Assembly: GCA_017859955.1 (NCBI GenBank)
Contig: JAFNAB010000001.1
Location: 1-64,000 of the forward strand
DNA length: 64,000 nt
Source of the DNA: Holophagaceae bacterium
Lineage (GTDB): Bacteria; Acidobacteriota; Holophagae; Holophagales; Holophagaceae
Direction of reading: 5' to 3'
In this document: positions 1-9,253 of the stretch, in pieces
How the letters are laid out: each line of letters opens with the position of its first letter
How positions within the stretch are numbered: position 1 is the stretch's first letter
The notes under the pieces: model-generated
Database searches by the model: none
Seen by the model: only the letters and a program-made list of their open reading frames with translations
Told to the model about the DNA's origin: nothing
Made by a program: the position numbers and the translations under genes

Positions 1-422
1 GGCGAGGGGGGCAAGGGTTTGGGAGCCGGAGCTTGAGGCGCAGGATTGGGCTGCGGACTTTCCTGAGGCTTGACTTGGGGAGGCGGCGCCGGGGGCTCCC
101 AGGGTTTACTGAAGTCCCAGCGGGCCAGCAACTTGCCAGTCCCATTCCGGAGCTCCACGATCTCCCCCTTGGGGGGAAGATAGCGCTCCCAGCGAACGGG
201 TCCGAATTCCACATGGCGGGAGTCGTGAACGAATTGCCCATCCAGGAAGAGGTCCGTGGGGCAATCCACTTCACCCTCGATCACCACAATGCCCCCCAGG
301 ACGTGATAGGACCAAGGTGCAAGCTCCACCGCAGGGGGTGGAGGCGGGGGCGGAGGCACGTGCTTTTCGCAGGCCAGGGTCAGCAGAAGGGCACAACCAA
401 CCAGGGTGGAGCGAACCCTCAT
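1..422 (-). CDS. Proline-rich lipoprotein (3' end outside window)
   Basis: The reading frame opens with a basic start, a hydrophobic stretch and a lipobox ending at Cys18 (LTLAC), so the product is probably a lipid-anchored envelope protein. A run of prolines follows at residues 23-30, then a short folded segment of about 80 residues, then a second Pro/Gln/Ala-rich stretch still open at the window edge. The ATG overlaps the TGA of the upstream pterin-synthase-like gene in an ATGA arrangement, suggesting translational coupling. I do not recognise the family. Proline-rich linkers are common in proteins that span the periplasm, but no function can be assigned. The gene is truncated by the window, not by mutation. 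Confidence 0.75.
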   Translation of the reverse strand, partial: MRVRSTLVGCALLLTLACEKHVPPPPPPPPAVELAPWSYHVLGGIVVIEGEVDCPTDLFLDGQFVHDSRHVEFGPVRWERYLPPKGEIVELRNGTGKLLARWDFSKPWEPPAPPPQVKPQESPQPNPAPQAPAPKPLPPS

Positions 423-766
423 GCCCGCTCCAGACAAGCGGCCCAATAATTGGCCTTTTCGCGGATACGAACCCGACGGGGACGGAACCCAGCAGCCTCC
501 AGATGCTCAAAGGCCCATTGGGCGAGCAGTTCAGCCGTGGGGTTCTTGCCATTAAGCCAGGCGTGATCATTGAGCAGGGTGTAGTCGAGGATCGCCACCC
601 AGGCATCCAGAGCCTTGGCGAAATCGGCCTCGGAGGCCGTGCCCTCCTGGATCACTTCCGCCTCCACGGCCCAGTTGTGGCCATGCCTGGGCTCCACAAA
701 GCCAGGCAGGTCATGGAAGTGGTCTGAGACGAAAGATCGTTGGAGGGTCAGGGTGAACTGGGACAC
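419..766 (-). CDS. 6-pyruvoyl-tetrahydropterin synthase / QueD family protein, PTPS-III-like
   Basis: 115-residue member of the PTPS/QueD (COG0720) family. Zinc ligands are visible as His16, His28 and His30 (HGH), and a C-terminal Glu in the REK segment matches the pterin-anchoring acid. The catalytic Cys of QueD (CxxxHGH) is absent. In its place the protein reads E25-P-R-H28-G-H30, the ExxHGH pattern I recall for PTPS-III enzymes, which cleave dihydroneopterin triphosphate to 6-hydroxymethyl-dihydropterin for folate synthesis. The usual LDH motif is LDY, so the catalytic His also appears replaced. A queC gene lies about 4.7 kb away, so an unusual QueD in the queuosine pathway remains possible. 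It overlaps the downstream lipoprotein gene by 4 bases. Confidence 0.8.
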   Translation of the reverse strand: MSQFTLTLQRSFVSDHFHDLPGFVEPRHGHNWAVEAEVIQEGTASEADFAKALDAWVAILDYTLLNDHAWLNGKNPTAELLAQWAFEHLEAAGFRPRRVRIREKANYWAACLERA

Positions 767-881
767 GAGGCCAGTGTATAAGCGAAATGCGAAAAGACGA
801 GATCGGAATATCGGGGAGCAGAGCCCAGCTCCGGCACGGGCGCATTGACGCTCAGGCCGGGGGCTCCTGTCTTTTATCGTC

Positions 882-1051: not shown

Positions 1052-1702
1052 TCATCCCAGCTCCTCCTTGAGCCCCTCCAGGTAGCCCAGCATCCTGTCG
1101 TTTCTCCGCTTCGCCTCCCGTCGGCCCGCCTGGGTGTTCATCCCGTCAGCGAGCTTGAGGAGTTTCTTCTCAAAGTGATCCAGGCTGTAGCGCTTGTCGT
1201 CCAACTCACGATCCAGGCCCCAGGGGTCCGCCTCATCCCACATCCCCGCTCCCATGGAACCACCGGTGGCGAAGACCCGGGCGATGCCGATGGCCCCCAG
1301 GGCATCCAGGCGGTCGGCGTCCTGGAGCACGGCCCCCTCAAGACTCCGGGGCGCCTTGCCACCAGAAAAACTGTGGGTTTCCACGGCCTCGGCCACCGCT
1401 TCCGCATGGGGAGCAAGGTCCGGGTATTCCAGACACCACTCCCGGGCTTCCAGGGCAGACAGCTCGGCGGTGCGTGGCGAGTCCGGATGATTCTTGGGCA
1501 GGTAGACCAGGTCATGGAGCAGGGCCGCCGTCCCGCAGACGAACATCAAAGCCCCCTCCTCCCGGGCCAAGCCCATGGAAAGCCGGGCAACCCGCAGGAC
1601 GTGACCCAGGCCGTGGGCGCCATCGCGCTGCTCCTGGGCGATCCTCTGGGTCAATCGCCTCACAAGGCGAGGGTCAGGGGACTGGGCATCGAATATCATC
1701 AT
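1052..1702 (-). CDS. HD-domain metal-dependent phosphohydrolase (YedJ-like)
   Basis: 216-residue single-domain HD protein. The metal site is visible in order: His34 (HGLGHVLRV), His63-Asp64 (LLHDLV), His110, and Asp130 in QDADRLDALGAIG. The DADRLDALGAIGIAR signature and the total length match the YedJ-type group of HD hydrolases. The cellular substrate is not established by sequence; nucleotide or phosphate-ester hydrolysis is the family-level expectation. The gene is divergent from dsbD with a 16-base gap between the two start codons, so they may share a promoter region. The N-terminus has two adjacent ATGs and only a weak ribosome-binding site. Confidence 0.85.
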   Translation of the reverse strand: MMIFDAQSPDPRLVRRLTQRIAQEQRDGAHGLGHVLRVARLSMGLAREEGALMFVCGTAALLHDLVYLPKNHPDSPRTAELSALEAREWCLEYPDLAPHAEAVAEAVETHSFSGGKAPRSLEGAVLQDADRLDALGAIGIARVFATGGSMGAGMWDEADPWGLDRELDDKRYSLDHFEKKLLKLADGMNTQAGRREAKRRNDRMLGYLEGLKEELG

Positions 1703-4809: not shown

Positions 4810-5509
4810 GATTGTCCAACGGGGCCGCCCTCTGGGCTCCCCCTTCTCCATGTGGATGAACTATCGAATGGTGCCCTTCTTCGCGGCCCATCTCATCAAG
4901 CTCCTGGCTTACACCTGGAGGGTGAAGCGTCTGAATTTCGAGCCCGTCGCGGAGCTCGTGGCCTCGGACACACGCTTCATCCTGACGTTCTGGCACCGAC
5001 GCCTGATTGCCATGCCCCTGGCCTACCCCTTCAAGCGGAAAGGCCCCATGGGCGAGACCCTTGGCGTTGCAGCTCTCCAGAGCGACAGCAAGGATGGGGA
5101 ACGCAGCACCGCCACCTTCCGCTGGTTCGGCGTCGAGGCCGTTCGGGGCAGCGCGGGCAAGACCGGCACCCAGGCCCTGGTGCGCATGATCCAGGCGGTC
5201 AAGCAGGGCTGGGACCTGGGCATCACACCCGACGGCCCCCGGGGCCCTCGACAGGAGGCCAAGCCCGGCACCATGTCCGTGGCCCGGAAGACCGGGGCCT
5301 GGGTCGTCCCCGTCTGTGTCGCCTTCGATCGGGCCTGGACCCTCAAGAGCTGGGACCGGATGCTGGTAGCCAAACCCTTCGCCAAGGTGACCGTGCGCTA
5401 TGGGCAGCCCTACCAGGTGGGTCCTGGCGAGGAAGAAAGCCTGCGATTGGCATTGCAGGAAGAACTCAATGAAATGGAAAATTGGGCAGAGGAGGTCCAG
5501 CATGGCTGA
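4796..5509 (+). CDS. Lysophospholipid acyltransferase family protein (DUF374)
   Basis: 237 residues beginning at the ATG inside the 3' end of hslO. The FWHRR segment and the TPDGPRGPR motif are characteristic of DUF374 proteins, distant relatives of the LpxL/PlsC-type acyltransferases that act on lipid A or phospholipids at the inner membrane. A hydrophobic N-terminal stretch (about 24-38) may anchor it. It overlaps queC by 8 bases at the other end, so hslO, this gene and queC form a tightly packed operon without obvious functional unity. The acceptor lipid cannot be deduced. Confidence 0.82.
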   Translation: MARIEIVQRGRPLGSPFSMWMNYRMVPFFAAHLIKLLAYTWRVKRLNFEPVAELVASDTRFILTFWHRRLIAMPLAYPFKRKGPMGETLGVAALQSDSKDGERSTATFRWFGVEAVRGSAGKTGTQALVRMIQAVKQGWDLGITPDGPRGPRQEAKPGTMSVARKTGAWVVPVCVAFDRAWTLKSWDRMLVAKPFAKVTVRYGQPYQVGPGEEESLRLALQEELNEMENWAEEVQHG

Positions 5510-6200
5510 TCTTGCAATCGTTTCGCTCTCCGGCGGGCTCGATTCATGCGTCACAGCCGCCATCGCCAAGTCCGAAGGCTATGACTTGGCGCTGCTCCAT
5601 GCGGACTACGGCCAGCTCACGGAAGCCCGGGAACACAAGGCATTCCTGGACATCGCCGACTTCTTCGAGGTTCCCCAGGAACGCCGCCTGGTCATCAGTT
5701 TCGACTACCTGCGCCACATCGGCGGCTCGGCCCTGACAGACCCTCGGATCGCCCTCCCCGAGGGTGACCTGGAACGCCGAGGAGTGCCTTCCAGCTATGT
5801 CCCCTTCCGGAACGCCCATCTGATGGCCACCGCCACGAGCTGGGCCGAGGTCCTGGGGGCCAGCCACATCTTCGTGGGCTTCGTGGAGGAGGATTCCAGC
5901 GGCTATCCCGACTGCCGTGAGGTCTTCCTCAAGTCCTTCGAGCAGACCGCCAACCTGGGCACCCGCCCCGAGACCCGGCTCCGCTTCCAGGCCCCTTTGA
6001 TCCACATGGACAAGGGCCAGATCGTCCGCCGTGGTCTGGGGCTCGAAGCCCCCCTGCACCTCACCTGGAGCTGCTACCAGACCGAAGACAAGGCCTGCGG
6101 CAGATGCGACTCCTGCCTCCTGCGCCTCCGGGGATTCAAGGAGGCGGAAAGCCCAGACCCCATCCCCTACACCTTCATCCCCGACCAGTTGAAGGTCTAG
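5502..6200 (+). CDS. queC: 7-cyano-7-deazaguanine synthase QueC
   Basis: 232-residue enzyme that converts 7-carboxy-7-deazaguanine to preQ0 with ATP and ammonia, in the queuosine pathway. The N-terminal PP-loop S10-G-G-L-D-S15 binds ATP. Four zinc-binding cysteines near the C-terminus are C191, C199, C202 and C205 (ACGRCDSC). The start is set at the ATG of MADLAIV because GGAGG precedes it inside the upstream gene; a longer in-frame extension has no family support. A strong terminator hairpin follows the stop directly. A QueD-family gene exists at 419-766 but is atypical, so the pathway partner is uncertain. Confidence 0.95.
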   Translation: MADLAIVSLSGGLDSCVTAAIAKSEGYDLALLHADYGQLTEAREHKAFLDIADFFEVPQERRLVISFDYLRHIGGSALTDPRIALPEGDLERRGVPSSYVPFRNAHLMATATSWAEVLGASHIFVGFVEEDSSGYPDCREVFLKSFEQTANLGTRPETRLRFQAPLIHMDKGQIVRRGLGLEAPLHLTWSCYQTEDKACGRCDSCLLRLRGFKEAESPDPIPYTFIPDQLKV

Positions 6201-6246: not shown

Positions 6247-7521
6247 CTAGCAGCGGAAGGCCTTGGGGGGCTTGAGCCACTGAGCAATAATGGCACCTAC
6301 AACCGCAATGGCCGTCACGACATAGATGGAGGCGTGGTAGTTGCCGGTCTTGGTCAGGAGCGCGGAGCCGATCCCGATGGCAGGGACACCGGCAAAGAGG
6401 CCAATGCCGAACCAGAGACCGATCATCTTGCCGACCAAGTGGGCAGGGTAATGGAGGGTCACAAAGGCGATGCAGACAGGAACGACCCAGGCGAGGAAGA
6501 ACCCTGCAATGCCAAGGACCGGGTAGAGGATCTTCATATTGGTGTAGACGAAGGGCTGGCTAATGGAAAAGATGAAGACCGCGAAGACCAGGAAAGCAAC
6601 GGTTACCGTGACCCGGGCATTCTCCCGGAAGATCTTCTCAAAGATGGGTGCAACGGCAGCGGCACCCAGCATGAAAAGAACCTGGAGGGTGGTCATGAGC
6701 TTGCCCGCGATGACGGGGCCGTAGCCTACGCCCATGGGCTTGCTCACGGCGAAGTAGCCGGGGGTCAGATCGTTGGTGGACACAAAGCACCAACACATGA
6801 ACAGCATGACGAGGATGCCCACATAGAAGACGGGCTCGCTCGTGGCCAATTTCCAATCCCTGGCCATGGAGGCTTCGTCCTGATGGCTCTCCTTGGCCTT
6901 GGGGGGCTTGGGGCCGAAGGGAATCACCAGGGTCATGATGAGGGCGATGATGGGCACGATGGCCATGCAGGCCATCATGGCCAGCCAATTCTTGTTGGTG
7001 GCGAGGTAGGCCGCGGGAGCCGCGCCAAAACCAATGGCCACACCCAGGGAGGTGGCAAAGCCCTGTAGGCCTGCCACCATGCTGCGCTGGGCAGGGGGGA
7101 ACCAGATGGCCGCCAGCACAGGCGCGGTGGCGTAAATGGGACCCACGCCCAGGGGCTGGAGCACCCGGAGAACGATGACCGCCGGCAGGTTGTTGCCCAC
7201 CACCGGGTAAAGGAGACTCGGAATGATGAGCAGGGCGCAGCCCAGCAGGAACATCCGGGTGATGCCGACCCGGTAGACGAAGAAGCCCGCGACGATGGTC
7301 CCCGCAGGTCCCACGAGATTCCAGGTGGCCATCATGAGGGCGGTGGTGGGACCCACACCGATGTGAAGATCCTTGGCGATGAACTCCACCATGGAGGCCG
7401 GGGCGATCATGACGACCGTCTGGGCCGCCGTGGCCACCAGCATCACCAGCATCAGGTACCAGCGGAAAGCTGGATAACTGATGGAGGGTTCGCCTGTGGG
7501 ATTGAGGGCGTGCTCACTCAT
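6247..7521 (-). CDS. MFS transporter, paralogue A
   Basis: 424-residue integral membrane protein with about 12 hydrophobic segments and a central charged loop (PKPPKAKESHQDE). It is a major facilitator superfamily permease, possibly for an organic anion, but no substrate-specific motif was recognised. It is about three-quarters identical by eye to the protein encoded immediately upstream (7746-9035), including the C-terminus WLKPPKAFRC/WLKPPKSFRC. The start ATG (MSEHAL) is chosen because AGGAG sits 7 bases upstream; an ATG two codons earlier lies too close to that site. Each copy is followed by its own terminator. Confidence 0.85.
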   Translation of the reverse strand: MSEHALNPTGEPSISYPAFRWYLMLVMLVATAAQTVVMIAPASMVEFIAKDLHIGVGPTTALMMATWNLVGPAGTIVAGFFVYRVGITRMFLLGCALLIIPSLLYPVVGNNLPAVIVLRVLQPLGVGPIYATAPVLAAIWFPPAQRSMVAGLQGFATSLGVAIGFGAAPAAYLATNKNWLAMMACMAIVPIIALIMTLVIPFGPKPPKAKESHQDEASMARDWKLATSEPVFYVGILVMLFMCWCFVSTNDLTPGYFAVSKPMGVGYGPVIAGKLMTTLQVLFMLGAAAVAPIFEKIFRENARVTVTVAFLVFAVFIFSISQPFVYTNMKILYPVLGIAGFFLAWVVPVCIAFVTLHYPAHLVGKMIGLWFGIGLFAGVPAIGIGSALLTKTGNYHASIYVVTAIAVVGAIIAQWLKPPKAFRC

Positions 7522-7694
7522 CGGCATTCTCCTAATTTGGCTGGGGGCAACCCACGCCGAAGGGGTCCGGGCCTTGGGGCCCATCACAATTGGCAGGCTC
7601 TAAAAGCCTGAGGAAAAAGACTTGGGAGGAGATCTGACCGCAGGCTACCACCGAATCCGCCTCACAATCATCAATTTTTCGCATCGCCAAGATC

Positions 7695-7745: not shown

Positions 7746-9035
7746 CTAGCAGCGGAAGGATTTGGGGGGCTTGAGCCACTGGGCCACGATGGCGCCCACG
7801 ATGGCCACACAAGTCACCACGTAGATCGAGGCGTGGTAGTTGCCAGTCTTGACCAACAGGCTCGCTCCTACGCCGATGGCGGGAACCCCCGCAAAGAGGC
7901 CGATGCCAAACCAGAGGCCGATCATCTTACCGGTCAGGTGCGTGGGGTAGTTCAGGGTCACGAAGGCGATGCAGGTGGGGATGATCCAGGCCAGGAAGAA
8001 GCCCGCAATAGCCAGGACGGGGTAGAGGATCTTGAAGTTCGTGTAGACGGCGGGCTGGCTGATGGAGAAGATCGCCGCAGCGAAGACCACGAAGGCCACC
8101 GTGACCGTGCCCCGGGCATTCTCCTTGAAGATCTTCTCGAAGATGGGGCCCAAGAGGGCAGCACCCACCATGAAGGAGACCTGCACAGTCTGCATGAGGT
8201 GGCCGGCGACCACCGGTCCATAGCCCACACCCAGGGGCTTGCTCACTGCGAAGTAGCCAGGAGTCAGGTCATTGGTGGACACGAAGCCCCAGCACATCAG
8301 GAACATTACCAGGATGCCAATGTAGAACACGGGTTCCTTGGTCGCCATGGACCAATCCTTCTTCATGGCGGCCTCATCCAGGTGTTCTGCCTTAGCCCGG
8401 GGGGGCTTGGGACCAAAGGGCACCACCAGGGTCATGAAAAACGCCAAGGCCGGCACTACGGCCATGCAAGCCATCATGGCCAGCCAGTTATTGTGCATGG
8501 CATGGTAGGCGGCCGGAGCAGCCCCGAAACCGATGGCCACGCCCAGAGAGGTTGAAAAGCCCTGAAGACCCGCCACGGCAGCCCGCTCCTTGGCAGGGAA
8601 CCAGGAGGCAGCCAGGATGGGGGCGATGGAGTAGATGGGGCCAACGCCCAGGGGCTGGATCACCCGAAGGATAAGGACCGGCACCAAGTGATTGCCAACC
8701 ACGGGATAGAGCAGACTGGGGATAATGAGGAGGGCGCAGCCCAGGAGCAGCATCCGGGTGATGCCGACCCGGAAAACGAAGAATCCTGCCACGATGGTGC
8801 CCGCCGGGCCCACCAGGTTCCAGGTTGCCATCATGAGGGCCGTCGTGGGTCCCACGCCAATATTAAGGTCCTTGGCGATGAACTCCACCATGGAGGCGGG
8901 CGCGATCATGACCACGGTCTGGGCCGCCGTGGCCACCAGCATCACCAGCATCATGTACCAGCGGAAGGCCGGATAGCTGAGGGAGCTTTCAGCGGCCTTT
9001 TCAAGGGCCGGGTTTTCAAGCACACTTTCGTTCAT
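7746..9035 (-). CDS. MFS transporter, paralogue B
   Basis: 429-residue MFS permease with about 12 membrane segments. Long blocks are shared with the downstream paralogue, for example PASMVEFIAKDL, GVGPTTALMMATWNLVGP and GKMIGLWFGIGLFAG. The N-terminus is slightly longer and charged (MNESVLENPALEKAAES). The ATG at 9035 is preceded by AGGAGG with good spacing. The 5' flank carries two overlapping palindromes (9069-9103) that could regulate it. Substrate unknown. The tandem arrangement suggests either dosage or split specificity between two related substrates; neither can be decided from sequence. Confidence 0.85.
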   Translation of the reverse strand: MNESVLENPALEKAAESSLSYPAFRWYMMLVMLVATAAQTVVMIAPASMVEFIAKDLNIGVGPTTALMMATWNLVGPAGTIVAGFFVFRVGITRMLLLGCALLIIPSLLYPVVGNHLVPVLILRVIQPLGVGPIYSIAPILAASWFPAKERAAVAGLQGFSTSLGVAIGFGAAPAAYHAMHNNWLAMMACMAVVPALAFFMTLVVPFGPKPPRAKAEHLDEAAMKKDWSMATKEPVFYIGILVMFLMCWGFVSTNDLTPGYFAVSKPLGVGYGPVVAGHLMQTVQVSFMVGAALLGPIFEKIFKENARGTVTVAFVVFAAAIFSISQPAVYTNFKILYPVLAIAGFFLAWIIPTCIAFVTLNYPTHLTGKMIGLWFGIGLFAGVPAIGVGASLLVKTGNYHASIYVVTCVAIVGAIVAQWLKPPKSFRC

Positions 9036-9068
9036 TATCTTCCTCCTAAAATGGTAATAAAAAGACAT

Positions 9069-9103
9069 GTTAAGACATGCAAAGCCATGCCTTAACAGGC
9101 ATG
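9069..9103. promoter_or_regulatory. Overlapping palindromes upstream of MFS paralogue B
   Basis: A 28-base inverted repeat (9069-9096) has arms GTTAAGACATG and CATGCCTTAAC, matching at 10 of 11 positions. A second perfect inverted repeat, CATGCCT-taac-AGGCATG (9086-9103), shares its left half with the first, so the two structures are mutually exclusive if they form in RNA. They lie about 35-70 bases upstream of the start codon, suitable for an operator or an RNA switch. Confidence 0.55.
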
Positions 9104-9253
9104 AGGTTCGGACTCGGAGTGATTGCGAGGCCCAGGCTATCACCAAATCCTAGATGACCGTCATCGAATCTATACATACTTCCATAAACCCATTCGATCA
9201 CCTTATGAATGCCATTGACAACCAGCAGGAGACCATCTCAGGAAGCACCGGGC

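Follow-up and report, generated by a model that had tools for sequence, protein, structure and literature searches.

A gene at the left edge of the window, the 64,000-nucleotide stretch of Holophagaceae DNA that was analyzed as a whole, raises the question of which pathway is served by a protein that automatic annotation would call QueD. Judged from its sequence and from the genes found elsewhere in the genome, the protein is most likely a FolB substitute.

419..766, minus strand: PTPS-III-like gene (COG0720/PF01242), 115 aa, GTG start

The window protein matched PF01242 (PTPS) at 50.5 bits in the Pfam search, compared to a cut-off of 22.4, and PTPS was its sole Pfam match at E values up to 0.1; a FolB/DHNA identity was rejected, since there was no PF02152 match. 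The best NCBIfam model was the QueD equivalog TIGR03367, at 33.7 bits compared to a cut-off of 89.25. The fold predicted by AlphaFold (mean pLDDT, 94.8) is that of PTPS. Its best solved match was Escherichia coli QueD (4ntk; Z 15.8, rmsd 2.1, 110 residues, 24% identity), and the other matches included PH0634 (2dj6; Z 15.6, rmsd 2.1, 108 residues), human PTPS (Z 15.4), Plasmodium PTPS (Z 12.3 to 12.6, with P. vivax PTPS at 12.6), and FolB-type DHNA (near Z 10). Because QueD, PH0634, and human PTPS rank within 1 Z unit, the fold has no say on the subfamily.

The initial annotation had described a QueD-family protein with neither catalytic Cys nor catalytic His, in which ExxHGH replaces CxxxHGH and LDY replaces LDH, and the residues are exactly as it claimed. 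The motif is E25-P-R-H28-G-H30, there is no Cys before HGH or at the QueD Cys position (the only Cys, C111, lies near the C terminus), and L60-D61-Y62 stands where QueD has LDH, with Y62 in the place of the QueD His. From the roles of the corresponding QueD/PTPS residues, we take H16, H28, and H30 to be the Zn ligands, E25 to be the catalytic base, and E103 to be the pterin anchor; H18 is an extra invariant His. A PTPS-II (biopterin) identity was rejected because the CxxxxxHGH motif is absent. The assignment of ExxHGH to PTPS-III in the initial annotation agrees with the signature given for PTPS-III in PMC5041015.

The reading frame is more than chance, given its conservation across 33 loci. 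Among the genomes of 60 relatives, 37 of which belong to the same family (Holophagaceae, Acidobacteriota), a window-type gene was read in 33 of the 37 family members, the exceptions being G011, G020, G026, and G029. The frame was kept in the 33 Holophagaceae loci, and E25, H16, H28, and H30 were present in every one of them. When the window sequence was aligned with 24 others, 25 columns were invariant (F12, D15, H16, H18, P21, F23, E25, R27, H28, G29, H30, W32, W56, L65, N66, N75, P76, T77, E79, L81, L89, E103, K104, W108, and A109), and Y62 was conserved in more than 90% of the 25 members. Of 62 named loci, 59 matched at 50 to 67% identity, including those of Geothrix fermentans, G. paludis, G. 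terrae, and G. rubra, although the names on a few records differ; the remaining three were a Holophagales copy with an insertion (L164, 38%) and partial matches in Phycisphaerales and Streptomyces loci (37 to 38%). In the phylum sample, 38 of 39 Holophagaceae genomes matched the window-type profile at 159 bits or more, compared to 55 bits for the best match outside the family.

Two features of the genome bear on the choice between QueD and PTPS-III. First, the genome that contains the window (3.76 Mb, 95% complete) has three PTPS genes, and one of them, on contig C210, is a second, canonical QueD (KCRNMHGH ... LDHH); it has CRNM at this position and is therefore without the Glu of the CExxHGH hybrids described below. 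A TGT gene is on contig C38, and QueC lies inside the window. The finding that would have refuted the initial annotation, a queuosine-making genome in which this is the sole QueD, was therefore not obtained.

5502..6200, plus strand: QueC (profile matches), 4.7 kb from the PTPS-III-like gene and on the opposite strand

The initial annotation had mentioned that queC is nearby. The gene is there, but its presence has no evidential weight, because it is on the other strand, 4.7 kb off, and several ORFs lie in between (the HD hydrolase, DsbD, a hemerythrin-like protein named by eye, Hsp33, and DUF374). QueC was also absent among the named shared neighbors of the window-type gene in the Holophagaceae neighborhoods.

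Second, the PF02152 profile found no FolB match in the window's own genome (an assembly 95% complete) or in 36 of the 37 Holophagaceae genomes, as expected for PTPS-III. FolB matches were found in 3 of the 60 relatives: G055, G057, and a single Holophagaceae genome, G009, which has FolB and the window-type gene and no FolK match. MptD (PF04038) was rejected as a FolB substitute, with matches in 0 of the 60. FolK was found in 54 of the 60 relatives, including the window's own genome (contig C91), and in 33 of the 37 Holophagaceae (not in G003, G007, G009, and G026); G003 and G007 do carry the window-type gene. FolE was found in 57 of the 60, in 54 of them over the cut-off. The FolE match in the window's own genome is just a 32-position piece, below the cut-off, at the edge of contig C212, and FolE is full-length in G001, the complete genome of a member of the same genus. 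In the sister family, f2, a canonical QueD was read in six genomes and a Cys-less ExxHGH protein in six; in a further family, f3, CExxHGH hybrids were read in two genomes. FolB was matched in none of nine f2 and seven f3 genomes. Both features, with a canonical QueD elsewhere and FolK present without a FolB match, favor PTPS-III over QueD. In this genome the folate and queuosine routes both look needed, with QueD accounted for and the FolB step left without FolB.

It is quite probable, on these grounds, that the product of the window gene is a dedicated PTPS-III, which makes 6-hydroxymethyl-7,8-dihydropterin from 7,8-dihydroneopterin triphosphate (DHNTP) and so replaces FolB, ahead of FolK in folate synthesis. 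We infer the substrate, the product, the zinc, and the residue roles of such an enzyme as follows. Within the PTPS fold, Zn2+ on His16, His28, and His30 would polarize the side chain, the pterin would be anchored by Glu103, and Glu25 alone would act as the general base. In QueD and PTPS, an Asp-His pair activates the Cys. Because a Glu carboxylate needs no activation, this pair would be dispensable in the window enzyme, where its His has been replaced by Tyr. The gene is thus a candidate for taking the place of FolB in Geothrix and its relatives, a bacterial family in which FolB was found in 1 of 37 genomes.

The PTPS of Plasmodium falciparum (a PTPS-III; PDB 1Y13) likewise combines the PTPS fold with ExxHGH (FRETLHGH), and according to PMC2229834 its Glu in place of Cys is essential for forming 6-hydroxymethyl-dihydropterin and the enzyme can replace FolB. 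Compared to the 181-residue chain of 1Y13 (Z 12.3, 19% identity), the window protein is bacterial, is 66 residues shorter, and has the extra invariant His18. In the window protein, Y62 stands at the place of the triad His. PH0634 of Pyrococcus horikoshii is also a Cys-less ExxHGH protein (WEDVHGH), but it keeps LDH and has no HxH, that is, no His two residues past the first zinc ligand. E. coli QueD, a PTPS-I, shares the fold, the zinc histidines, and a Glu near the C terminus, whereas the Cys and the Asp-His pair that it shows in the alignment are represented in the window protein by neither a Cys nor that His.

The loss of the catalytic His along with the Cys was then followed through 163 Acidobacteriota PTPS domain rows, chosen by matches to the window-type profile and PF01242 and not at random (56 Cys-less ExxHGH, 42 CExxHGH, 34 CxxxHGH, 7 CxxxxxHGH, 7 other, and 17 without HxH); the comparison of Cys and His used the first three groups. 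The catalytic His was missing in 55 of the 56 Cys-less ExxHGH rows, where the pair equivalent to DH was DY (43 rows), HY (3), HD (2), HN (1), NY (1), DE (1), xG (4), or DH itself (1, L229); E103 was present in all 56. The CExxHGH rows, which are PTPS-I/III hybrids of other Acidobacteriota (for instance, L012 and L182 to L190), have the Glu at the same position as the window protein, but they keep the Cys, and 39 of 42 keep DH, the three without it being L037 (a window-type orthologue, CEPRHGH), L230, and L095. Such hybrids can serve folate, according to PMC5041015. DH was kept in all 32 CxxxHGH rows; this count replaces the 32 of 34 given by the script, because the motif in L106 and in the second L107 domain is in fact CxxxxxHGH (KCNN[FK]HGHGH). 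With the script's labels, DH was found in 1 of 56 Cys-less rows compared to 71 of 76 others (Fisher p, 5e-30), in rows that are related and chosen, 32 of the 56 being from Holophagaceae.

Beyond Holophagaceae, the Cys-less rows came from 11 genome families, only one of which keeps DH. Mapping the Cys-less label onto a tree built from 111 rows takes five changes, and well-supported branches force at least four. Therefore, single ancestry alone is insufficient to explain the label. The association between Cys and His probably had more than one origin; in this tree the branch of the Holophagaceae clade is long, and its placement is uncertain. The double loss is not peculiar to the window gene but is what most of the sampled Cys-less PTPS of the phylum show, a point that the initial annotation had not foreseen; this covariation and the presumed leaderless promoter described below are additions of the present analysis. 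The loss of His after LD offers a second mark separating dedicated PTPS-III from QueD and from the CExxHGH hybrids. The Glu alone does not force the loss, because PH0634 and L229 keep LDH. Why the catalytic His is retained in some Glu-type enzymes but missing from most of the sampled ones thereby becomes a question open to testing.

A different split was found in tandem proteins. Two PTPS domains occur in one frame next to folE in L104, L105, and L107 (fused, family f2) and also in L106, and two-domain PTPS frames were likewise listed at G057 C143 and G059 C31. In the fused proteins L104, L105, and L107, the first domain has DH without the Cys, and the second is CxxxxxHGH (PTPS-II type) without DH; the PTPS-II second domains of L104 to L107 all keep the Cys and have lost the His. 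This split is consistent with an active site to which two subunits or domains contribute, and an intersubunit triad is named in the title of a paper cited by PMC2229834.

A more detailed account of these losses is possible, and we offer it tentatively, as one that is less likely than not to hold. The Cys-His half of the active site would have been dismantled repeatedly once Glu replaced Cys, in a graded series that in Acidobacteriota would run from CExxHGH with LDH (the hybrids) through ExxHGH with LDH (L229) to ExxHGH with LDY, LHY, or LHD. In the class Holophagae (Holophagaceae and f2), a new His two residues past the first zinc ligand would have taken over. On this account, the window enzyme would use the PTPS scaffold for a one-base, FolB-like cleavage, and its substrate might be a dephosphorylated one that the neighboring HD hydrolase provides. 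The extra His was found in 33 of 33 Holophagaceae loci (DHFHDLP) and in six f2 proteins (ASHKHYGE, ASHIHNGE), and it was absent from the 18 other Cys-less rows. That it was recruited in place of the lost catalytic His is a guess from this distribution.

The surroundings of the gene bear on its expression and on its substrate. The features next to it are the following.

1052..1702, minus strand: HD-domain phosphohydrolase gene, upstream on the same strand
773..778, minus strand: presumed -10 hexamer TACACT, ending 6 nt before the GTG start
3..422, minus strand: start of a downstream gene that the window edge truncates, proline-rich and lipoprotein-like, with an ATGA overlap at the PTPS stop

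The common order in Holophagaceae is DsbD (divergent; 27 of 33 neighborhoods), the HD hydrolase (17 of 33, all in one cluster that includes the window), the PTPS gene, a deacetylase-like gene, and an FtsK-like gene (25 of 33), with the last two named by eye and several of the 33 neighborhoods cut by contig ends. The gene at 3..422 is a fragment without a Pfam match, and the version in relatives is about 500 aa long and deacetylase-like by eye. In one locus (L042:4981-6618, G007), the PTPS frame continues without a stop into the deacetylase-like gene, either through fusion or as an artefact of assembly. Clustering with folate genes is treated in the literature as support for PTPS-III, although not as part of its definition. 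The Holophagaceae neighborhoods showed no folate gene beside the window-type gene, and none was found beside other Cys-less members among 20 neighbor proteins from 12 of 22 loci.

Upstream of the start codon (assigned by script), a TANA[ACT]T box ending at a distance of 5 to 9 nt is present in 64 of 66 distinct Holophagaceae sequences (window included), and the distance is 5 or 6 nt in 57 of those 64; these are not 64 independent cases, because the relatives share ancestry. The same box was found before 0 of 19 QueD genes, 0 of 10 HD genes, and 110 of 9025 ATGs of any kind in the same loci. A Shine-Dalgarno-like stretch was present in 2 of the 66 upstream sequences. PMC3160421 describes bacterial leaderless genes, among them those of Acidobacteria, as having this layout, with a -10 element directly before the start, and the layout suggests that the window-type gene has a leaderless mRNA. 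Against the presumed -10 hexamer of the window stands a scan of positions 300 to 1100 for full -35/-10 consensus promoters, which found none.

The HD gene is also the basis of the alternative that survives best. The window enzyme could be a FolB-like aldolase acting on dihydroneopterin monophosphate or dihydroneopterin, after the adjacent HD phosphohydrolase has stripped the phosphates from DHNTP. The HD gene lies directly upstream in the 17 neighborhoods of the cluster and was also seen by eye in L036, some archaeal PTPS-III members may use the monophosphate according to PMC5041015, and the loss of the triad His would make the site unlike that of a DHNTP-using PTPS. However, a conserved -10-like box of its own precedes the PTPS gene, so that co-transcription with the HD gene is not required, and purified P. 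falciparum PTPS formed the product from DHNTP only, as reported in PMC2229834. We therefore regard this alternative as improbable compared to a PTPS-III acting on DHNTP.

Somewhat less probable still is that a transaldolase-family protein (FolB2) performs the FolB step, with the window gene making another pterin or having drifted. FolB2 was predicted from the clustering of some transaldolases with folK (PMC1971073), and a small transaldolase was matched in 56 of the 60 relatives, the window's own genome included. However, this transaldolase is single-copy in most genomes and is present in the FolB-bearing G055 and G057 as well, as expected for a role in sugar metabolism. The positions in the complete genome G001 are 337972 for the transaldolase and 3606366 for folK, and separate contigs carry them in the window's own genome. 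Nor does a transaldolase immediately precede folK in G001 or G006, where that place is taken by QueF and a GSP_synth protein, respectively.

It is very improbable that the protein is an inactive paralogue that serves in binding or regulation. The absence of both the Cys and the triad His could be read in this way, and a degenerate PTPS without metal histidines does occur in the same genome; but the window protein, unlike that paralogue, retains its metal histidines and Glu25 across 33 loci and its Glu103 across all 25 sequences of the alignment, and a dead enzyme would leave the transaldolase as the only candidate for the FolB step. Last, a second QueD (6-carboxytetrahydropterin synthase) is the least probable reading and was rejected, since its top fold match to E. 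coli QueD and top NCBIfam model TIGR03367 are set against a score under the cut-off of that model, the absence of both catalytic residues, and the canonical QueD on C210.

The degenerate paralogue is the third PTPS gene of the genome, on contig C209 (L003:1348-1764; VFPSADGRWEGHDY). It adjoins dprA and, by eye, ETF-QO-like and signal-peptidase-like genes. Paralogues of this type, with EGHDY and without metal histidines, were read in 10 Holophagaceae genomes (L076 to L085), and similar degenerate PTPS of a KGDRF type were found in four f2 genomes (L074, L086 to L088).

Across the phylum, an ExxHGH DNA pattern (followed by N, S encoded by AGY, D, or G) was found in 185 of 283 FolB-less genomes compared to 42 of 113 FolB-bearing ones, which is a weak test: the counts were made by hand and include chance hits (reversed-pattern controls hit too), TCN serine codons are missed, 2 of the 113 FolB matches are below the cut-off, and the genomes share ancestry. 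At least 14 FolB-bearing genomes of family f47 have one pattern match each, and nearly every f47 genome has one; the FolB matches there (for example, in G151 and G223) lie in frames of 409 to 431 aa, which suggests a longer protein with FolB as one part. Should the f47 pattern match be a PTPS, it would speak against FolB and PTPS-III simply excluding each other.

Some further observations concern neighboring subjects. ExxHxH PTPS in which the Gly of HGH is replaced (HVH, HSH, HAH, or HRH) were seen in L093, L197, L199, L204, and L075, and two such genes (L255 and L258 regions) adjoin a CDP-alcohol phosphatidyltransferase gene. In G001, queF directly adjoins folK (L266:4522-5516), which joins a queuosine gene and a folate gene. 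Finally, the window contains two tandem and very similar ORFs, at 6247-7587 and 7746-9146 on the minus strand, which by eye resemble MFS transporters.
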